64,000 bases of DNA, taken from NCBI GenBank assembly GCA_903847205.1, contig CAINDA010000062.1, positions 62,001 through 126,000 on the forward strand, given 5' to 3'. A program made the translations under genes and the position numbers. The stretch comes from an uncultured Bacteroidota bacterium (GTDB lineage: Bacteria; Bacteroidota; Bacteroidia; 2-12-FULL-35-15). Under the pieces are notes generated by a model, which had not been told where the DNA came from, did not search any database, and saw only the letters and a program-made list of their open reading frames with translations. Position 1 is the first letter of the stretch, and every line of letters begins with the position of its first letter. Positions 32,840 to 47,932 of this stretch are shown here, one piece after another.

Positions 32840-35800
32840 ATGGAGCCGGGAGCAAAAATTACTTTTTTTCTGTTTGTTTTTTTATGCCTTTTTGCAAAAG
32901 GCTTTGCCGGAGCTGTAAAAGCAGGCGAACCGCAGAACACAGTTAAATTCACTGAAAATAAAAATCAGTGGGATAAAAATGTATTGTACCGCGCCCAGCT
33001 CGACGGCGGTGTTTTATTTCTCGAAAAAAACTGCTTCACATATAATTTTTATGATAAAGAAACACTTCGTAAAAACCATATTTCAGAAAAGAAAAACGGT
33101 CCGCCCAAGAAAATAGAAGCTATCCGCTCTCATGCATTCCGCATGACCTTTGCCGGTGCTGATACTGCAGCACTTGTATCTTCTAATAATGTAACTCCTG
33201 ACTATTGCAACTTTTACATTGGACAGGATAAAAACAAATGGGCAGGCGGTGTAAAAAATTATAAAGAAGTAAATTATAAAAATTTATATACTGGAATTGA
33301 TCTGCAAGTACTCGGCATGCAGAACAGTATGAAATATAATTTTATTGTCAGCCCGCAGGCGGACCCCGATGCAATTCAGCTGTCTTACGTGGGCCTCGAA
33401 AGCATTATCCTGATGAAGAATTCACTGGTATTAAAAACCAGCCTTAATGAAATTGAAGAACAGAAACCTTATGCCTACCAATTGATAAAGGGCAGAAAGA
33501 AAGAAGTTAAATGTCTTTTTGTTTTAAAAAATGAAACAGTCAGTTTTATTTTTCCGAAAGGATATGATAAAAATGCAGCTTTGATTATTGATCCTGTATT
33601 GGTATTCGCCTGTTCATCGGGTTCAACCGCAGATAATTTCGGCATGACTGCCACTTATGATTCTCATGGCTGCCTGTATGCAGGCGGCACTTGTTTTGAT
33701 CAGGGCTACCCTGTTACAACAGGTGCTTACGATGGCACTTACAACGGTGCAGTAATGGGAGGAAGAACGGATGTAATCATTTCGAAATACGACGCGTCTG
33801 GAACTTTTATGCAGTATTCAACTTACCTCGGCGGAGCATCAGGTACCGAAATTGTAAGCAGCTTAATTGTAAATTCTCAAAACGAGTTAATGCTTTTCGG
33901 TGCAACCGGATCAAATGATTTTCCTGTAACAGCGGGCGCTTATGATGCAACATTTAACGGCGGTTCCTATTTATCGTTTCCGTATAACGGCACAGAATAT
34001 TTGAGCGGCACAGATTTATATGTTTCAAAATTTAACAGCACCGGCACAAGCCTGCTGGCATCCACTTATGTAGGAGGCTCTCAGAACGACGGTGTTAACA
34101 ACAGTTCTACCCTTGTTTATAATTACGGCGATTATTACCGCGGCGAAATACAAACCGATACTTTGGGAAACTGCTACATTGCCAGCTGCACTTATTCGCC
34201 AGACTTTCCGACAACGCCAGGCTCTACACAGCCTGCTGCAGGAGGCGGAATGGACGGGGTAGTGTTTAAAATGAATCCCGGCTTAACTGCTATGACATGG
34301 AGTACATACCTTGGCGGAAATGCCGATGACGGCTGTTATGCGCTCACTATTGATAATTTATTTAATGTTTATACAACCGGCGGAACATCCAGCACTAATT
34401 TCCAAACTACCCCAGGGGCATTCAGTACAAGCTACAATGGCGGTGTTACAGATGGCTTTATTACAAAAATAAAAAATGACGGAACTGCGATTCTTAAATC
34501 AACTTTTGTAGGCACCGGTTCTTACGACCAGTCTTTTTTAATTCAGCTTGACAACAATTTTGATGTGTATATCATCGGGCAGTCAGAGGGTACAATGCCT
34601 GTATCAGCGGGCGTTTATTCAAACCCTAACAGCAAGCAGTTTATCTGGAAAATGAACAGCAATTTAAATACACGATTGCTGACTACTATTTTTGGCAGCG
34701 GTACCGGACAGGTCGACATTTCTCCGTCTGCTTTTTTGGTGGATGTATGCGGCAATATTTTTGTTTCCGGCTGGGGTGGAAACGTTATAACTGGTGTAGC
34801 TACTATGGGTATGCCCGTTACATCTAACGCTTACCAGTCATCAACCGACGGTTTTAATTTTTATTTATTTGTGCTTGCACCTAATGCTTCATCATTTCTT
34901 TACGGTACTTATTTCGGCGGGCCATACAGCAGAGAGCATGTGGACGGCGGAACCAGCCGTTTTGATAAAAAAGGAATTGTTTATCAGGCTGTCTGCGCCG
35001 GCTGCGGAGGCAATGATGATTTCCCTGTAACGCCCGGTTCATGGCCTCATACAGGCTCCAATGTAAATCATTCATTCAACTGCAACGAAGGTGTTTTTAA
35101 ATTCGATTTCCAGCAGTCGGGCGTAAGTGCCGGTGTTATTACATTACCCAATGATACTGTCTGCATCGGGTCACCCATCAATTTTAATAATACAAGCACC
35201 AATGCATTTAATTATTTATGGAATTTCGGCGACGGCTCTGCCATTAATACTGCTGTATCGCCAAGCCACATCTATGCAGCAGCAGGAAGTTATACCGTAA
35301 CGCTTATCGCGATTGATTCTTCAGGCTGCGTATTTTCCGATACTGCACATACCAGAGTTGTGATTCTGCCCCGCCCAGTTGTGAATCTTGGGCCTGATGT
35401 GAAGTTCTGCTCACCCCCTAATGTACCGCTTGATGCAGGAACTACCGGTTTTATTTATACCTGGTCAACAGGCGCTTCAACGCGCACTATCACGGCTTCG
35501 ACAACTGGAACATATTGGGTAAAGGTTGGCAACGGCGTATGCACAGGCTCAGACACTATCAGTATCCAGCAGGTGCCTAAACCTAACTTGGGTAATGATA
35601 CAACTTTGTGCAACGGGCAAAACCTTGTACTGCACGCTCCTTCGGGCGGAGTTTCTTATCTGTGGTCAACTGGAGATGCGGCCTCACAGTCAATCACTGT
35701 TTCTGCTGCCGGGCAGTATTGGGTATCTGTTAATTGGGGAACCTGTACGACAAGCGATACTGTCAGTATAACTGTTGTTCCTTATCCTACAGTAAATCTT

Positions 35801-36478
35801 ACCCCTTCAGTTCAATTCTGTCCCGGCGATTCAATTAAATTAGACCCCGGAAACAGCGCCAATACAACCTACCTATGGTCAACCGGTGCAGTGTCTCAAA
35901 AAATTACAGCTGTTACTGCCGGAATATATTATGTTAAAGCAACAAGCCAGGCTTGCAGTATTTGGGATACAACAATGGTAAACGGCATTCCGCCTCATGG
36001 ATGGCTGAATCACGTTACAGTATGCAATATTGAAAAATACACACTGGATGCAGGGTTTTCTGGAGGCACCTATCAATGGTCAACTGGAGCAAGTACGCAG
36101 CAGATCAGCATTACCGAACCCGGCCCTTACTGGGTAAAGGTGAATAATCATGTATGCTTATATACCGATTCTGTTACTATTGACGGCAGTTTTAGCGGGG
36201 AAGTAATCTGGTTCCCGAATTCATTTACTCCCAACGGCGATAACCTGAATGATTATTTTACAGCCAAAGGCACTGATATTACTGACTTTCAGATGCTGAT
36301 ATTCAACCGCTGGGGAGAACAGATTTTTGAAACAAAAAAAATAGAAGAAGGCTGGGACGGCACCTGCCAGGGGAATCCTGTTGAACAGGACGTTTATATC
36401 TGGAAAATAAAATATAAAACAAAATGCAGCAAAGATCTTTTTGCTGAAAAAATCGGGCAGGTGAATGTTGTGAGGTGA
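32840..36478 (+). CDS. Giant T9SS type B surface protein, DUF7948/SBBP front, Ig-like repeats
   Basis: 1212 residues. Signal peptide (FFLFVFLCLFAKGFAG). The front half (about 25-750) has NTVKFTENKNQWDKN and the long SBBP-type beta-propeller with repeated TYLGG and DFPVT motifs. A PKD domain follows, near 765-850 (NYLWNFGDGSAI). Four Ig-like repeats (CxxxxLDAG...YxWSTGA) come next. The C-terminus is the type B sorting domain: FPNSFTPNGDNLNDYF, LIFNRWGEQIFET and WDGTCQGNPVEQDVYIWKI. Family knowledge: such proteins are moved by T9SS to the cell surface with a PorP/SprF partner. It is a paralogue of the gene at 39464. Confidence 0.92.
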   Translation: MEPGAKITFFLFVFLCLFAKGFAGAVKAGEPQNTVKFTENKNQWDKNVLYRAQLDGGVLFLEKNCFTYNFYDKETLRKNHISEKKNGPPKKIEAIRSHAFRMTFAGADTAALVSSNNVTPDYCNFYIGQDKNKWAGGVKNYKEVNYKNLYTGIDLQVLGMQNSMKYNFIVSPQADPDAIQLSYVGLESIILMKNSLVLKTSLNEIEEQKPYAYQLIKGRKKEVKCLFVLKNETVSFIFPKGYDKNAALIIDPVLVFACSSGSTADNFGMTATYDSHGCLYAGGTCFDQGYPVTTGAYDGTYNGAVMGGRTDVIISKYDASGTFMQYSTYLGGASGTEIVSSLIVNSQNELMLFGATGSNDFPVTAGAYDATFNGGSYLSFPYNGTEYLSGTDLYVSKFNSTGTSLLASTYVGGSQNDGVNNSSTLVYNYGDYYRGEIQTDTLGNCYIASCTYSPDFPTTPGSTQPAAGGGMDGVVFKMNPGLTAMTWSTYLGGNADDGCYALTIDNLFNVYTTGGTSSTNFQTTPGAFSTSYNGGVTDGFITKIKNDGTAILKSTFVGTGSYDQSFLIQLDNNFDVYIIGQSEGTMPVSAGVYSNPNSKQFIWKMNSNLNTRLLTTIFGSGTGQVDISPSAFLVDVCGNIFVSGWGGNVITGVATMGMPVTSNAYQSSTDGFNFYLFVLAPNASSFLYGTYFGGPYSREHVDGGTSRFDKKGIVYQAVCAGCGGNDDFPVTPGSWPHTGSNVNHSFNCNEGVFKFDFQQSGVSAGVITLPNDTVCIGSPINFNNTSTNAFNYLWNFGDGSAINTAVSPSHIYAAAGSYTVTLIAIDSSGCVFSDTAHTRVVILPRPVVNLGPDVKFCSPPNVPLDAGTTGFIYTWSTGASTRTITASTTGTYWVKVGNGVCTGSDTISIQQVPKPNLGNDTTLCNGQNLVLHAPSGGVSYLWSTGDAASQSITVSAAGQYWVSVNWGTCTTSDTVSITVVPYPTVNLTPSVQFCPGDSIKLDPGNSANTTYLWSTGAVSQKITAVTAGIYYVKATSQACSIWDTTMVNGIPPHGWLNHVTVCNIEKYTLDAGFSGGTYQWSTGASTQQISITEPGPYWVKVNNHVCLYTDSVTIDGSFSGEVIWFPNSFTPNGDNLNDYFTAKGTDITDFQMLIFNRWGEQIFETKKIEEGWDGTCQGNPVEQDVYIWKIKYKTKCSKDLFAEKIGQVNVVR

Positions 36479-36504
36479 GCCGTTTATGAAGACTTTTGTT
36501 TCTT

Positions 36505-36714
36505 GAATCTCCACATTTACCGCATGAATTAAGAGTTTTATCACCTAATTGATTATTCATTTCGCTTGAATTAAAGGTCTAACTTCAAGAATGATCATTC
36601 TTATCACGTGAATGAAGATATTTGTGACGCGAATGATCATTCACACAGCTTGAATGATCATTCGAATGACTTGAATGATCATTCACGTCATTTGAATGAA
36701 GATATTTGCTAAAA
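36505..36714 (+). repeat. Ten-unit 21-bp tandem repeat array
   Basis: Units start at 36505, 36526, 36547, 36568, 36589, 36610, 36631, 36652, 36673 and 36694, exactly 21 bases apart. Nine begin GAAT. Four (36589, 36631, 36652 and 36673) begin with the perfect palindrome GAATGATCATTC. Two others (36610, 36694) begin GAATGAAGATATTTG. The array starts 26 bases after the surface protein stop codon and runs into the terminator at 36711. Confidence 0.9.
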
Positions 36715-36735
36715 ACCCCATCATCAGGGGTTTTT
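36711..36735 (+). terminator. Terminator at the end of the 21-bp array
   Basis: AAAAACCCC (36711-36719) pairs with GGGGTTTTT (36727-36735) around a seven-base loop. It is the probable end of the 32840 transcript, placing the repeat array inside its 3' untranslated region. Confidence 0.75.
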
Positions 36736-39463: not shown

Positions 39464-42400
39464 ATGAAGCACGGCCAAACAATTTTTATTTTTTCAATGC
39501 TGTTTGTGTTTTCATTTAAAGGTTTTGCCGGCAAGGTCAAAACCAATGAACCTCAGAACACTGTTAAGTTTGCAGAGAATAAAAACCAGTGGGATAAAAA
39601 AGTAATCTTCCGTGCCCAGCTCGACGGCGGTGTTTTGTTTCTCGAAAAAAACTGCTTCACCTATAATTTTTATGATAAAGAATCTCTCCGCGAAACTCAT
39701 GCAGGAGGAGGAAAAAATGCTGCTCCCCCTATCTCCGCATCATTACGCCAGCATGCTTTCCGCATGACTTTTTTAAATGCTATATCATATCCTGAAATAA
39801 AAGCAAAGCAGGAAACACCGGACTATTGCAACTTTTTTATCGGCAGTGATAAAAACAAATGGGCAGGCAATGTAAAAAATTACAAAGAAGTAAATTATCA
39901 AAACCTCTACAAAGGCATTGACCTGCAGGTTCTGGGCATGCAGAACAGCCTGAAATATAATTTCATTGCAGCACCGCTGAGCAACCCCTCTGATATAAAA
40001 CTTTTTTACGAAGGACTCAGTAAAATTGAAATTGAAAAAGGCGCTCTGAAATTAACAACAAGCATTAATGAAATGCAGGAGCAGCGTCCTTATGCCTATC
40101 AATGGATTGAGGGCAGACGTGTTGAGGTGCCCTGCGAGTTTGTTTTAGAAAACTCAGTTGTAAGTTTCAGTTTCCCTCAGGGGTATGAAAAGGGATATGA
40201 ATTGGTGATTGACCCCATACTCGTTTTCGCCTGCACATCGGGTTCTCAGGCCGATAACTTTGGAATGACAGCAACCTACGATTCAAAAGGCGATCTCTAT
40301 TCAGGCGGCACAGCCTTCGGCATAGGCTACCCTGTAACACTGGGTGTGTATGACCCAACCTGGAATGGTTCAAGCACCTATCTAGGAGGAAGAACCGATG
40401 TAGTAATCACAAAATATGATTCATCCGGCACGTTTCTTCAGTATTCAACCTATCTGGGCGGTTCGCATGGGTCTGAAATTGTTACCAGCCTTGTGGTTGA
40501 CGCTCAAAACGATTTGTTATTATACGGCGCAACCGGTTCTAATGATTTTCCCGTTACTTCTAACGCTTTTGACCAGACATTTAACGGAGGAACGCTGCTT
40601 CATTTTATCTGCAACGGAACTTTTTTTGATAACGGCACAGATATTTACGTTGCTAAGTTTAATCCTTCCGGTTCCACCCTTCTTGCATCTACTTACATCG
40701 GCGGAAGCCAGAATGACGGCGTAAATACCAATAACGTAACTGTTCTTACCACTGCCTGCAGCTCTACGCCGACTTTTGAATATCCTTTAGATTCGCTGCA
40801 GTTTAATTACGGTGACCAATACCGGGGAGAAATAAATGTTGATAATAACGGAAACGTTTACATAGCAAGTTCTACCCGTTCGTCTGACTTCCCTATTGTA
40901 AACGGGTTTGATAATACACTTGGCGGAAAACAGGATGCCGTTGTTTTTAAAATGAATCCGAATTTATCTCAGCTGATCTGGAGCACATATTTAGGAGGGA
41001 ACGACAACGATGCCGGCTATGCCCTTGCCTTGGACGATTCATTGAATGTGTATGTAACCGGTGGAACAAGAAGCACTGACTTTCCGGTTACAGCAGGCGC
41101 GGTTCAGGCTTCTTTCGGTGGAGGGAAGGCTGATGGATACATTACCAAAATCAGTAAAAACGGAACCAGTATATTATCCTCCACTTTCTGGGGCTCGGCA
41201 GCTTATGACCAATGTTATTTTGTGCAGTTAGATAAATTCAGCAATGTTTATGTTGTGGGACAAACAGCAGGTGCAATGCCTGTAACGGCAGGTGTTTATA
41301 ACAACCCGAACAGCGGACAGTTCATTACCAAAATGAACAGTACACTTAATACAATGGTGTTTTCTACAGTATTCGGAAGCAGCAGCGTAGCTCCCGATAT
41401 TTCACCTGCAGCTTTTTTGGTTGATTACTGCGGTAATATTTACGTGTCAGGATGGGGCGGCAATATTATTACGAGTATTCCCACCAGCGGAATGCCTGTT
41501 ACTCCAAATGCTTTACAGCTCTCATCAGGCGACGGATATAATTTTTATTTATTTGTACTTTCTACAAATGCTGCTTCATTAGTTTATGCTACCTATTTCG
41601 GCGGTTCTCAGAGCAGAGAACATGTTGACGGCGGCACCAGCCGTTTTGATAAAAAAGGAATTGTTTATCAGGCGGTATGTGCAAACTGCGGCGGCTACTC
41701 TCTTGCAACACGCCACAATGATTTTCCGGTAACGCCTGGATCATGGCCCAATACAGGCTCAAATGTAAATCATAATACGCAGAACTATAACTGTAATATG
41801 GGTGTTTTTAAATTCAATTTTCAAGTTCCTATCGCAACCGCAAGTTTTACTGTTAATCATATTACAGGCTGCGCGCCTGTTACTGTTAATTTTTCTAATC
41901 ACAGCTCGCCCGGAGGCGCTTTTTTATGGGATTTCGGATCAGGGGATACCACTTCTTTAATCCTAAATCCTATAAGAACTTATACAATCCCAGGAACCTA
42001 CCTGATCAAATTGTATGTGAATAATGCTGCCACATGTAATATTGTTGATTCAACTTACCAGTATGTAACGGTGTATCCTGGCATTGATGCAGATTTTAAT
42101 TTTGTTTCCGTTCCCTGCACCAATCAGGTTACATTTCATGATTCATCAGCAGTTGCGCCCATTTCATGGCTTTGGCATTTCGATGACGGCGATTCATCAG
42201 CAGTTCAAAATCCCCAGCATACCTATGCAGCAAACGGAACATACAACGTGCAGCTGATTACTTCTAATAGCCATGGATGCAAGGACACAGCGGTTGTGCA
42301 GGTAAATTTTGCAGGTGCTGTCGCTCTAACGGTGTCACCGAGTGCAACTATCTGTAAAGGCAGTACCGCCCAATTAAATGCTTCCGGAGGTTTTGCTTAC

Positions 42401-43087
42401 AGCTGGACTCCCGCAGCAAGTTTAACAAATGCCTTAATTTCTAATCCCGTTGCTTCGCCCGATACAACCACAATTTATACAGTGGCCGTTAAATTTGTAA
42501 ATGGCCTAGGCGACACCTGCACCCGCTTATTATCAGATACAGTTTTTGTTGTTAATCCCGCCACTTTGCCACTGACAGCAACTGCTGATAAAGACACTAT
42601 TTTAGAAGGCACATCAACAACCATTCATGCAATTACTAATCCCGGATTAACTGTTCTATGGAGCCCTGCAGCAAGTTTAAGTAATCCGAATTTATTAAAT
42701 ACTGAAGCGTCCCCGGCTGTTACAACAACTTACACGGTAACAATAACAGGCACTTCCGGCTGTCCGAAAACAGCATTCATAACTATTTACGTTGTCCCGA
42801 AAAGCTGCAGCCCCGAAAATGTTTTTGTTCCAAACACCTTCAGCCCTAATGGCGATGGGACTAATGATGTTTTATTAGTGAGAGGAAACGAAATAAAAAC
42901 ACTTTATTTTGCAGTGTATAACAGATGGGGACAGCTCGTTTTTGAAACCAGTGATTTAACAAAAGGCTGGGATGGCGTGTACAATGGGATGAAAACAGAT
43001 CCTGTTGTTTATGCTTGGTACTTAACTGCCGGATGTTTTAACGGCGGAGTCTTAAAAAAACAGGGGAATACAACGCTGATAAGGTAA
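39464..43087 (+). CDS. Giant T9SS type B surface protein, paralogue of 32840
   Basis: 1207 residues. Signal peptide (FIFSMLFVFSFKGFAG). The front half repeats the 32840 design almost residue for residue in places (EPQNTVKFAENKNQWDKKV, AQLDGGVLFLEKNCFTYNFY). It has the same propeller and DGGTSRFDKKGIVYQAVCA stretch. Two PKD domains follow (FLWDFGSG near 825, SWLWHFDDGDSSAVQNPQHTY near 905). The last 340 residues, from about PGIDADFNF, match the end of the 43277 gene closely. It ends in a type B sorting domain (VFVPNTFSPNGDGTND, YNRWGQLVFET, KGWDGVYNG, GNTTLIR). Confidence 0.92.
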   Translation: MKHGQTIFIFSMLFVFSFKGFAGKVKTNEPQNTVKFAENKNQWDKKVIFRAQLDGGVLFLEKNCFTYNFYDKESLRETHAGGGKNAAPPISASLRQHAFRMTFLNAISYPEIKAKQETPDYCNFFIGSDKNKWAGNVKNYKEVNYQNLYKGIDLQVLGMQNSLKYNFIAAPLSNPSDIKLFYEGLSKIEIEKGALKLTTSINEMQEQRPYAYQWIEGRRVEVPCEFVLENSVVSFSFPQGYEKGYELVIDPILVFACTSGSQADNFGMTATYDSKGDLYSGGTAFGIGYPVTLGVYDPTWNGSSTYLGGRTDVVITKYDSSGTFLQYSTYLGGSHGSEIVTSLVVDAQNDLLLYGATGSNDFPVTSNAFDQTFNGGTLLHFICNGTFFDNGTDIYVAKFNPSGSTLLASTYIGGSQNDGVNTNNVTVLTTACSSTPTFEYPLDSLQFNYGDQYRGEINVDNNGNVYIASSTRSSDFPIVNGFDNTLGGKQDAVVFKMNPNLSQLIWSTYLGGNDNDAGYALALDDSLNVYVTGGTRSTDFPVTAGAVQASFGGGKADGYITKISKNGTSILSSTFWGSAAYDQCYFVQLDKFSNVYVVGQTAGAMPVTAGVYNNPNSGQFITKMNSTLNTMVFSTVFGSSSVAPDISPAAFLVDYCGNIYVSGWGGNIITSIPTSGMPVTPNALQLSSGDGYNFYLFVLSTNAASLVYATYFGGSQSREHVDGGTSRFDKKGIVYQAVCANCGGYSLATRHNDFPVTPGSWPNTGSNVNHNTQNYNCNMGVFKFNFQVPIATASFTVNHITGCAPVTVNFSNHSSPGGAFLWDFGSGDTTSLILNPIRTYTIPGTYLIKLYVNNAATCNIVDSTYQYVTVYPGIDADFNFVSVPCTNQVTFHDSSAVAPISWLWHFDDGDSSAVQNPQHTYAANGTYNVQLITSNSHGCKDTAVVQVNFAGAVALTVSPSATICKGSTAQLNASGGFAYSWTPAASLTNALISNPVASPDTTTIYTVAVKFVNGLGDTCTRLLSDTVFVVNPATLPLTATADKDTILEGTSTTIHAITNPGLTVLWSPAASLSNPNLLNTEASPAVTTTYTVTITGTSGCPKTAFITIYVVPKSCSPENVFVPNTFSPNGDGTNDVLLVRGNEIKTLYFAVYNRWGQLVFETSDLTKGWDGVYNGMKTDPVVYAWYLTAGCFNGGVLKKQGNTTLIR

Positions 43088-43226: not shown

Positions 43227-43276
43227 TTTGGATTGAATAAATGGGCCTCAGAAGATTATTCTGGCAAAATTATATA

Positions 43277-46200
43277 ATGAGAAGAAAACATTATTTTATA
43301 TTATTATTAACTCTTCTTTCATTAAAGAGTTTTGCTACTCACATTGTGGGCGGTGAAATATTTTACAATTGTATAGGAGGTAATAATTATCAGATTACAT
43401 TAAAACTTTACAGAGACTGCTTCAACGGCCTGGCTCCGTACGACAATCCAGCAACATTATTTATTTTTAATAATGCAGGAACTCTTGTCGACAGTGTTGA
43501 AATTCCTTTTCCCGGATCTGTTGTTCTGCCTTTCCCCTTAAATAATCCCTGCCTTACACCTCCTACAAATATCTGCGTTGAACAGGCAATTTATCACACC
43601 ACAATAAATCTGCCTCCACTTGCAGGCGGGTATGATATAGTTTACCAGCGCTGCTGCAGAAACGGCACAATATTAAATCTGATAAGTCCCGGTAGTGTCG
43701 GGTCAACTTATATGGCGCATATCCCTGATCCAGGGCTGGCAGTCTGTAACAGCAGTCCTCATTATAATAATTTTCCGCCTATATTTTTATGCGCCGGTGT
43801 TCCTTTAAATTTCGATCATTCAGCAACTGATGTGGACGGCGATTCGCTCTATTATGAATTATGCGATGCGTTTACCGGATTAGATCCAAACTGTCCTATA
43901 TTAGGTCCGCAGACTGCATTCGGCTGTCCTCCCCTCGCTTCACCCCCTCCGTATGCTTTCGTTCCCTGGCTTTCGCCCTACAGCGGAACATATCCATTGG
44001 GTTCATCACCCGCATTGGCGATAGATCATACAACTGGTTTAATGACCGGCACACCCAATACCATTGGGCAGTTTGTTGTTGCTGTATGTGTGAGCGAATA
44101 CAGGCACGGAGTGCTGTTGGATGTGAACAAAAGGGACTTTCAATTTAATGTTGTAAACTGCGGCCAGCCTGTTGCATCTATTCCTACACAGCAGCCGTTT
44201 TGTTTTGGGCAGCCTTCCAATTTTTCGCAGAATTCTTTGAACGCTTTTTCATATCACTGGGATTTTGGCGACCCCGGAACCAGTCTTGATACTTCAAACG
44301 TTATATCTCCTTCATGGACTTATGCGGCAATTGGAACTTACACCGTATCACTTATAGTTAATCCACATACATTGTGTGCAGATACTGCAGCTATAACCGT
44401 TAATGTTAATCCGCTGCCGGCGATGACAAATGCAAACACTGCTACAATCTGCAGCGGGGGCACACTATCAATACCATTAACAAGCAGTATTCCTTCTAAT
44501 TATTCCTGGGTGGCTGCAAATAATCCGAATACCACCGGTGAAAGCATTACAGCGCAGACAGGAAGTACAATAACGAATACAATTACAAATAATACAGTAA
44601 ATGTGCAGACAGTAATTTATACTGTAACGCCGACTTCAAATCCGGGCAACTGTGTCGGAAACGCGCAGACAATAACGGTTACGGTTAATCCTTCGCCTGC
44701 TATGACCAATCCTAACAATGTTGCTATTTGCAGCGGGGGCACTGTAAACATACCATTGACGGGCAGTTCAGCATCTGCATACACTTGGATTGCCACTGAC
44801 AATTTAAACACAACCGGCGAAAGCACAACCACCCAAACGGGAAGCCCTTTAAACAATACAATAACAAATAATACTGCATCAATACAAACGGTAACCTATA
44901 CCATTACACCGACCTCAAGCCCTCAGGGATGTGCAGGAACACCGCAGACTTTAACTGTTTTAGTAGTCCCTCCTCCAACAATGACCAGCCCTGCTTCAGC
45001 TTCTATTTGCAGCGGGGGCACAGTAAGTATTCCGCTCACAGGCAGCCTCCTTTCAACTTACTCATGGATTGCGGCAGACAATCCGAATACAACAGGGGAA
45101 AGTTTAACAACACAGACCGGGAGCCCATTGAGCAATACAATAACTGATAATGCTGCAACTGTGCAGACCGTTACTTACACTGTTACACCTACAACTATTA
45201 TTGCTGCCTGCGCGGGTACACCTCAGACGGTTACAGTAACAGTGAGTCCGCCTCCTGCAATGACTAATTTAAACACAGCAACGATTTGCAGCGGGGATGC
45301 AGTAACGCTTTCATTAACAAGCAGTATTCCTTCCACATTTTCATGGATAGCAGCGAATAACCCAAACACAACCGGAGAAAGCATTACAGCGCAGACAGGC
45401 AGTACATTAACGAATACAATAATAAGTAATGCGCTCTCGGTGCAGACGGTAACTTACACGGTAACGCCCACTTCAACCCCCGGCGGATGCGCTGGAATCC
45501 CGCAGACAATAACGGTTACGGTAAACCCTTCACCTGCTATGACAAATCCAAACAACGCTGCCATCTGCAGCGGAGCCACTGTAAACATCCCATTAACAAG
45601 CAGTTCAGCGGCAGCTTATACCTGGATTGCTGCCGACAATTTAAACACAACAGGCGAAAGCACAACATTACAGACCGGAAGCCCATTGAACAATACAATA
45701 ACAAATACTGTTTCCTCGACACAGTCGGTGATTTATACTGTTACGCCGACATCAAGCCCGCAGGGCTGTGCAGGAACTCCGCAGACTATTACAGTTTCGG
45801 TGATACCTCCTCCTTCAATGACAAGTCCTCTTTCAGCAGTTATATGCAGCGGAGGCACAGTAAGTATTCCGCTCACAAGCAGTTTAGCATCTTCATACAC
45901 CTGGATTGCTTCTGACAATTTAAATACAACAGGAGAAAGCACCACCTTGCAGACAGGAAGCCCCTTAAGCAACACAATAACAAATAATTCTACCTCAACA
46001 CAGACAGTGACATATACGGTAACTCCCACTTCAACTCTCGGCACCTGCCCCGGAACTCCGCAGACAGTGAATGTTTCCGTAAGCCCTCCGCCGACAATGA
46101 CAAGTTTAGACAGCGCAGTAATTTGCAGCGGAAGTGTTGTAACTATACCATTAACCAGCAGTGTTGCCTGCACCTATACCTGGATTGCAACTGACAATGT

Positions 46201-47932
46201 GAATACCACAGGAGAGAGCTTAACACCGCAGTCCGGAAGCCCCTTAAGCAACACTATTTCAACAAATTTGACATCAATACAAACTGTAACATATACAGTA
46301 ACGCCGACATCAATTGCAGGGAATTGCCCAGGCACTCCTCAGACAGTTACTGTAACGGTAAACCCAGCACCAACAATGACCAGCCCGGACACCGCATTTA
46401 TTTGCAGCGGAAGTACAGTAAACATTCCTCTGACAAGTAACTTCATCTGCACCTATACCTGGATTGCTAATGATAACCTGAATACCACCGGCGAAAGTAT
46501 TACAACACAGAACGGAAGCCCATTAAACAACACGATAACAAATAATTCCTCATCAAATCAAAATGTAGACTATACTGTAACACCAATATTAACAATAGGC
46601 ACCTGCGCAGGCATACCGCAGCATGTAACAGTAACAGTGCTCGCTCCCCCTTCAATGACCAGCCCGCCCACTGCGGTTATATGCAGCGATGGCACCGTAA
46701 ATATTCCTTTTACAAGTGACCAGACTTCCACTTATACATGGATTGCTGCAGACAATGCAAACACCACTGGTGAAAGCACAACTGCACAGACCGGCAATTC
46801 ATTGATAAATACAATAACGAATGGGACATCATCGGTGCAGACTGTAACATATACTGTAACGCCGACATCAAGTCCTGCGGGTTGCCTTGGTAATCCGCAG
46901 ACAATAACAGTTACAGTAAATCCAGGTATCAGGGCCGACTTTGATTTCGTATCCCTACCCTGCACCAATCAGGTTACGTTTTACGATTCATCTGCCGCTG
47001 CACCGGTTTCATGGCTTTGGCATTTTGATGACGGCAACTCTTCTACGGTTCAAAACCCTTCTCATACTTATAATTCAGCAGGAACATTTAATGTACAATT
47101 GATTGCATCAACAATTAACGGCTGTAAAGATACCGTTGTTGTTCAGGTTAACCTGGCAGCTGCTATCCCAGTGACAGTGAGCCAAGGCGGTACAATATGC
47201 AAAGGAAATAATATTCAGTTAACTGCCACAGGCGGCTTTGCCTATATTTGGTCGCCTTCAGCGGGTTTAAGCAGCGCTGTTATTTTCAACCCTCTTGCAA
47301 GCCCTGATACTACAACAATCTACAATGTTGCTATTGCAACAGTAAATTCATTAGGCGATACCTGCGTAAAAAATCTTTCAACTACTGTTCATGTTATTGA
47401 CCCCGGGCTGTATTCTATTTCTGCATCAGCAAGCCCGGATACAATTCTGCAGGGCCAGACCTCAATACTTCATGCTCATACAGATACAACCTTAACAGTT
47501 ACCTGGACACCCGCGGCAGGCATGAACAATTCACATTTATTTAATCCTACGGTCAGCCCTGAAACAACCACAGTATACACCGTTTCGATATTAGACAGTG
47601 CCGGCTGCCCTAAAACTGCAGAAGTAACAGTTTATGTAAAATCAATAAAATGCAATGCTTCAGATATTTTTGTGCCCAATACATTTACGCCAAACGGCGA
47701 CGGCAGCAATGATGTTTTATATGTAAGAGGAAATGAAATAAAAGAAGTTTATTTTGCTGTTTATAACAGATTCGGTCAGATGGTTTTTGAGACAAGGGAT
47801 TTAACAAAAGGCTGGGATGGCTTTTACAACGGCATGAAAGAAGATCCTGCCGTGTTTGCATGGTACATAAATGCGAAATGTTTTAACGGTGATGAAGTGA
47901 AAAAGAAGGGGAATGTAACTTTAATAAGATAG
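43277..47932 (+). CDS. Giant T9SS type B surface protein with nine tandem 93-residue PKD-like repeats
   Basis: 1551 residues from the preferred ATG at 43277, which starts a clean signal peptide (RRKHYFILLLTLLSLKSFATHIVGGE). An ATG at 43241 would add 12 residues in front of it. Residues to about 300 are a THIVGG-type front domain, then a PKD domain near 315 (YHWDFGDPG). Nine tandem repeats of 93 residues follow, each with the pattern MTxxxxxxICSGG and YTWIAxDNxNTTGES. The last 335 residues match the end of 39464 and finish in a type B sorting domain (IFVPNTFTPNGDGSND, YNRFGQMVFET, KGWDGFYNG, GNVTLIR). It is a surface adhesin-like protein, with PorP/SprF directly downstream. Confidence 0.92.
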   Translation: MRRKHYFILLLTLLSLKSFATHIVGGEIFYNCIGGNNYQITLKLYRDCFNGLAPYDNPATLFIFNNAGTLVDSVEIPFPGSVVLPFPLNNPCLTPPTNICVEQAIYHTTINLPPLAGGYDIVYQRCCRNGTILNLISPGSVGSTYMAHIPDPGLAVCNSSPHYNNFPPIFLCAGVPLNFDHSATDVDGDSLYYELCDAFTGLDPNCPILGPQTAFGCPPLASPPPYAFVPWLSPYSGTYPLGSSPALAIDHTTGLMTGTPNTIGQFVVAVCVSEYRHGVLLDVNKRDFQFNVVNCGQPVASIPTQQPFCFGQPSNFSQNSLNAFSYHWDFGDPGTSLDTSNVISPSWTYAAIGTYTVSLIVNPHTLCADTAAITVNVNPLPAMTNANTATICSGGTLSIPLTSSIPSNYSWVAANNPNTTGESITAQTGSTITNTITNNTVNVQTVIYTVTPTSNPGNCVGNAQTITVTVNPSPAMTNPNNVAICSGGTVNIPLTGSSASAYTWIATDNLNTTGESTTTQTGSPLNNTITNNTASIQTVTYTITPTSSPQGCAGTPQTLTVLVVPPPTMTSPASASICSGGTVSIPLTGSLLSTYSWIAADNPNTTGESLTTQTGSPLSNTITDNAATVQTVTYTVTPTTIIAACAGTPQTVTVTVSPPPAMTNLNTATICSGDAVTLSLTSSIPSTFSWIAANNPNTTGESITAQTGSTLTNTIISNALSVQTVTYTVTPTSTPGGCAGIPQTITVTVNPSPAMTNPNNAAICSGATVNIPLTSSSAAAYTWIAADNLNTTGESTTLQTGSPLNNTITNTVSSTQSVIYTVTPTSSPQGCAGTPQTITVSVIPPPSMTSPLSAVICSGGTVSIPLTSSLASSYTWIASDNLNTTGESTTLQTGSPLSNTITNNSTSTQTVTYTVTPTSTLGTCPGTPQTVNVSVSPPPTMTSLDSAVICSGSVVTIPLTSSVACTYTWIATDNVNTTGESLTPQSGSPLSNTISTNLTSIQTVTYTVTPTSIAGNCPGTPQTVTVTVNPAPTMTSPDTAFICSGSTVNIPLTSNFICTYTWIANDNLNTTGESITTQNGSPLNNTITNNSSSNQNVDYTVTPILTIGTCAGIPQHVTVTVLAPPSMTSPPTAVICSDGTVNIPFTSDQTSTYTWIAADNANTTGESTTAQTGNSLINTITNGTSSVQTVTYTVTPTSSPAGCLGNPQTITVTVNPGIRADFDFVSLPCTNQVTFYDSSAAAPVSWLWHFDDGNSSTVQNPSHTYNSAGTFNVQLIASTINGCKDTVVVQVNLAAAIPVTVSQGGTICKGNNIQLTATGGFAYIWSPSAGLSSAVIFNPLASPDTTTIYNVAIATVNSLGDTCVKNLSTTVHVIDPGLYSISASASPDTILQGQTSILHAHTDTTLTVTWTPAAGMNNSHLFNPTVSPETTTVYTVSILDSAGCPKTAEVTVYVKSIKCNASDIFVPNTFTPNGDGSNDVLYVRGNEIKEVYFAVYNRFGQMVFETRDLTKGWDGFYNGMKEDPAVFAWYINAKCFNGDEVKKKGNVTLIR
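44423..46933 (+). repeat. Nine tandem repeats of 279 bp (93 codons)
   Basis: The repeat start ATGAC(A/C/T)A lies at 44423, 44702, 44981, 45260, 45539, 45818, 46097, 46376 and 46655, exactly 279 bases apart each time. Repeats 1 and 4, 2 and 5, and 3 and 6 resemble each other more than their neighbours, for example sharing linker ends NPSPA, PPPT/PPPS and SPPPA/SPPPT. This suggests a triplet unit of 837 bp was duplicated. Confidence 0.93.

Follow-up and report, generated by a model that had tools for sequence, protein, structure and literature searches.

Mostly unrelated 21-bp tandem arrays in the non-coding DNA of some Bacteroidia keep an exact two-turn spacing

The non-coding DNA of some Bacteroidia carries a class of tandem arrays whose units, mostly unrelated in sequence from one array to the next, follow an exact period of 21 bases, two turns of B-DNA, or of 42, four turns. 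These arrays are short of insertions and deletions, show an excess of dyad symmetry, turn over rapidly and are patchily spread among species. The near-universal period suggests a spacing rule. Tentatively, and at somewhat less than an even chance, we propose that the spacing is held at two turns by a putative cooperative, oligomeric DNA-binding protein of low specificity, acting on fast-evolving non-coding arrays. One such array lies in the window, the whole 64,000-nucleotide stretch analysed here, which belongs to contig C62 in a genome of 5.49 Mb and 72 contigs (G000).

In the window, ten abutting units occupy positions 36505–36714 (consensus GAATGATCATTCnnnnnnnnT; no strand assigned), with a unit starting every 21 bases from 36505 to 36694. 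GAAT opens nine of the ten, the exception being the unit at 36547, which begins with AATT, and four units (36589, 36631, 36652 and 36673) begin with the perfect 12-bp palindrome GAATGATCATTC, at 36589–36600, 36631–36642, 36652–36663 and 36673–36684. Cutting the units every 21 bases bore out each of these features as given in the first-pass annotation. A weak, diverged unit in register with the array, TTATGAAGACTTTTGTTTCTT, precedes it at 36484–36504, and counting this unit the periodicity begins near 36486. Tandem Repeats Finder recovers the array with scores of 78–115. The upstream gene (32840–36478, plus strand; 1212 aa) encodes DUF7948, PKD domains and a C-terminal CHU_C type IX secretion signal, and the last base of its stop codon is 36478. 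A terminator-like nine-pair hairpin, AAAAACCCC-ATCATCA-GGGGTTTTT, adjoins the last unit at 36711–36735 (plus strand) and, being symmetric, is possibly bidirectional. The array had thus been placed correctly between stop codon and terminator; since the hairpin adjoins its last unit, it would be a 3′ untranslated region, and the transcription claimed for it earlier is plausible at this locus, with the terminator directly 3′.

The neighbourhood of the array holds several other features. A paralogue of the upstream gene, again of the DUF7948/PKD/CHU_C type (1207 aa), lies at 39464–43087, and in several species of the genus such copies occur in clusters. A 279-bp tandem repeat (44540–46548) lies within a 1563-aa open reading frame (43241–47932), which is followed by a PorP/SprF gene and looks like a repeat protein secreted through the type IX system. 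The sole Rfam match in the window at gathering score is a Flavo-1 RNA (RF01705; 25049–25124, minus strand; 58.4 bits), and Rfam gave no match at the array. Orthologues of the upstream gene in G022, G002, G013, G023 and G029, which are 65–70% identical, have no 3′ array in the flanks fetched. The lack of conservation in relatives that had been named as a point against the array is therefore true of the site, but untrue of the phenomenon.

The array is not peculiar to one gene. An absence of other arrays from the genome had been named as a further point against it; the opposite was found. Across the whole G000 genome, four GAATs at 21-bp steps with at most two mismatches gave 260 matches in many places. 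When every period from 7 to 60 was scored in 783 kb of this genome, fetched in stretches that favoured contigs with GAAT arrays, 23 arrays were found at period 21 and 27 at period 42, with at most 11 at any other period; the same detector found no array at any of these periods in shuffled sequence. After merging there were 27 arrays of 62–569 bp, with mostly different unit sequences. About 11 of the 27 are GAAT arrays on contigs picked for them, so that an unbiased count for the 783 kb would be nearer 16, from which we estimate that the genome has on the order of a hundred arrays or more. The arrays occupy convergent, divergent and tandem intergenic gaps and flank conserved housekeeping genes too, and some overlap short open frames because the unit length is a multiple of three. 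A tie to surface genes or to gene 3′ ends, as first supposed, is not supported by this placement, nor are large neighbours robustly enriched (p about 0.05 in G000 and 0.6 in the rich clade described below). Two different 21-bp arrays (G000:C22:64145–64511 and 69782–69960) lie either side of one 1658-codon open reading frame. Several contigs start within arrays, and arrays may break metagenome assemblies.

The spacing itself is strikingly uniform. Of the 1075 steps between successive units in 91 arrays, 1064 measure exactly 21 bases, and in the first sample from the rich clade none of 310 steps departs from 21. Compared with whichever of the preceding four units is most similar to it, a unit carries about four substitutions. 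Aligned non-coding DNA of the genus contains 6.1 substitutions per indel (522 to 86), compared with 2802 substitutions to 8 indels in a set of 48 arrays, or about one indel per 350–400 substitutions. Because a fixed-lag detector favours in-phase arrays, its bias was simulated at the genus indel rate (6:1) and similar divergence. The simulation expects approximately 15% of steps to be off 21 and a ratio near 28, whereas the arrays show about 1% and 350. The depletion of indels, about tenfold or more, is therefore taken as real, in agreement with the earlier view that exact phasing with varying units is unlike ordinary slippage or drift. Spacing strictly kept in whole helical turns is also one defining feature of a phased, iteron-like protein-binding array, which the window array may be, as first suggested; the nuclear proteins then named as binders are inapplicable to a bacterium.

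Ordinary neutral minisatellites, changing by slippage and unequal exchange and having a 21-bp unit through chance or descent, would fit some of these properties. The units run head to tail and fall in the minisatellite range of about 10–100 bp, the edges are more diverged than the centre in several arrays, including that of the window, and alternating or higher-order units occur in several arrays. However, nearly every array has a unit of 21 or 42 bp, so that length is not independent from locus to locus, the same period recurs on unrelated sequences in different families of the class, and indels lie far below the neutral rate of these genomes even with detection bias allowed for. This origin is accordingly disfavoured, and we consider it improbable.

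The 21-bp unit is indivisible, since there is no excess identity at lags of 7, 10, 11 or 14; helical sub-repeats of 10–11 bp and heptamers were rejected on the same grounds. Mean excess identity is higher at lag 42 than at lag 21, and many arrays have a 42-bp unit or alternating A and B units. A coding (heptapeptide) repeat was also rejected: 24 of 48 arrays are open in some frame versus 23 expected from column-permuted arrays, and variation lacks a codon pattern, with codon-position bias in only 2 of the 48. Bending predicted with wedge parameters exceeds that of shuffled DNA but equals that of column-permuted arrays, showing that it follows from the period alone, and selected intrinsic curvature was rejected as well. 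The units abut without spacers and vary throughout, which is not the form of a CRISPR array.

Dyad symmetry is significant (p<0.05) in 34 of 91 arrays, where about 5 would be expected. Over 83 arrays, the mean excess of compensatory covariation was 0.0035 (s.e. 0.0067), with a few exceptions such as L260 and L293. As the dyad arms generally do not covary, the symmetry seems to stem from the founding unit more than from upkeep by compensation. These results bear on whether the arrays act as RNA hairpins in untranslated regions, for example in transcript stability or termination. The dyad excess is consistent with such a role, as are the terminator 3′ of the window array and the folding of that array's transcribed strand, which is better than that of shuffles (z −5.75, the folded stretch including the terminator). 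Yet compensatory change between units is not general, and many arrays lie in divergent gaps; the RNA structure entertained in the first-pass annotation is thus very unlikely to explain the class. Among the 36 genomes of the genus, SbcD exceeds the family cut-off in only two (G016 and G006), a scarcity which, we suggest, may provide a permissive background for palindromic repeats; loss of SbcCD, a nuclease of palindromes, as the switch was rejected, SbcD being absent nearly genus-wide from rich and poor species alike. Outside the genus, two 21-bp arrays (L234:3976–4263 and L095:13125–13330) conserve only a short core (TATTAATTG, CTATTAATA) and, being variable elsewhere, look from their sequences more like spaced binding sites.

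Turnover was followed by setting three array loci of G014 against their counterparts in sister species. Near glutamate dehydrogenase, G014 alone among the species tested has an array, which sits with one extra gene in a segment of about 1.9 kb absent from G012. At the asparagine synthase locus, only G005 among the sisters has an array, which is short and has a different unit, and at the PIF1-like helicase locus no sister species has one in the stretch fetched. At two array sites other than that near glutamate dehydrogenase, homology ends at the gene end. Related units account for 7 of 361 same-genome pairs and 0 of 767 cross-genome pairs, with no shared palindromic family of the REP/BIME type. 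Three unit families recur within G000 at two or three loci each, a frequency biased upward because the families were partly found through the GAAT search; that of GAATGATCATTC is also present at C41:162964 and C50:142. When eight family loci were compared by BLAST with about 1 kb of flank, the longest matches listed fell only at the arrays or within tens of bases of them, and a scan of the genome collection for the exact palindrome pair returned nothing. The arrays therefore turn over fast, and unit families recur within, and not between, the genomes sampled.

The one-gene insertion in G014, the two sites where homology stops and the recurrence of unit families at other loci would also be expected of sites of recombination or integration through which gene cassettes move, as first suggested for surface genes. 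Only three sites were examined, however, and no site sequence is shared; there is no recombinase among the neighbours scanned, and conserved housekeeping genes are flanked as well. We regard this as the least probable of the explanations considered.

With one genome compared per species, those rich in GAAT-pattern arrays among the 36 species of the genus are G000, G004, G005, G012, G014, G015, G027 and G034; the majority of the others have few matches or none. In a FeoB tree, all of these except G000 group in a single clade, which has full support and contains no array-poor species, and G000 stands apart, which implies two gains, or a single gain plus losses. Stretches from G015, G027 and G004 again have periods of exactly 21 or 42 bp, at about one array per 15–30 kb, and G016 and G002, counted as array-poor, have few arrays. 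The FeoB of G016 is identical to that of RIFCSPLOWO2_12_FULL_35_15. The named relatives are uncultured, and the isolate names of several suggest MAGs from lakes or groundwater. Across the class, 103 of 396 genomes have at least one GAAT-pattern match, some of which are merely 7-bp microsatellites. In G266, which belongs to another family and where periods 21 and 42 again dominate, 80 kb contain about 14 non-coding arrays, and G364 has several as well, all at 21; the pattern-positive G155 and G143 yielded none in the small samples taken. Arrays are thus abundant in one clade of the genus, separately in G000, and in scattered other families of the class.

The arrays might instead be functionless products of a mutational ruler, a hypothetical lineage-specific enzyme or repair path that duplicates exactly 21 bp, for instance through nicks 21 nt apart, fill-in and joining, with recombination expanding the result. 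A ruler of this kind would give unrelated units one fixed length, and the patchy distribution, rapid turnover, presence in every gap type and ordinary, transition-biased substitutions are all in keeping with it. Conversely, 42-bp or alternating A/B units are not made by single 21-bp duplications, the dyad excess is left unexplained, and the enzyme is hypothetical. Mutagenic reverse transcription was rejected, as the substitutions have no A-specific signature and the presence of reverse transcriptase (RVT_1) does not track the arrays. The absence of a common sequence and the fast turnover slightly favour a ruler, which we hold to be a possible, if somewhat doubtful, source of the period.

Two other features, the frequency of 42-bp units and the excess of dyads, slightly favour selection for helical phase, most simply through a cooperative protein. 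Under this proposal, arrays would arise, grow by one or more whole units and vanish between species, related copies sometimes appearing at other loci of the same genome, and those that keep their units on one helix face would be kept or copied. The likeliest reason would be that protein dimers occupy successive two-turn sites and polymerise along one face, with a putative use in nucleoid bridging or in insulation between genes. The window array would be transcribed as a 3′ untranslated region, with no RNA function implied. Several points count against the proposal: unit sequences are too divergent between arrays for a single sequence-specific protein to read them all, curvature does not point to selection on shape apart from the period, the absence of arrays at the orthologous sites tested is expected of neutral repeats too, and contigs with GAAT arrays were over-sampled in G000. 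More broadly, and in our view rather unlikely, a chromosome-wide organising system in some Bacteroidia would read spacing and not sequence, any 21-bp unit in two-turn phase serving as a loading or bridging site for a polymerising protein, with arrays spreading and re-forming quickly.

Mostly unrelated arrays with an exact two-turn period and indels far below the neutral rate imply some means of gauging the length of DNA or its helical phase, and a binding protein and a mutational ruler alike offer a testable mechanism in separate families of one class. A full-text literature search, with most subscription journals outside its scope, returned no description of genome-wide 21-bp arrays in Bacteroidota, which is a weak sign of novelty. 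Several known systems each share single features with the arrays. Bacterial minisatellites, or VNTRs, are likewise intergenic and tandem, expand by whole units, have diverged edges and turn over fast; unlike them, mostly unrelated arrays here agree in unit length throughout the genome, and length variants are all but absent. REP/BIME and other dispersed palindromic repeats are intergenic, often have dyad symmetry and are sometimes clustered, but they share sequence within a genome, whereas the arrays described here have nothing in common but the period, most having a unit peculiar to themselves. Both of these systems thus fail a defining feature that was tested. Iteron arrays and the centromeres of plasmids, the 43-bp sopC repeats among them, are helically phased direct repeats, sometimes with an inverted repeat in each unit; however, they number one or few per replicon and have a cognate protein, as opposed to an estimated hundred or more arrays per chromosome with no common sequence. 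Finally, marine Beggiatoaceae have abundant intergenic sets of TAACTGA direct repeats, 169 in one draft genome (PMC4679880). Those sets have in common one conserved 7-base sequence, while the arrays described here have in common one length, on which the sequence varies.
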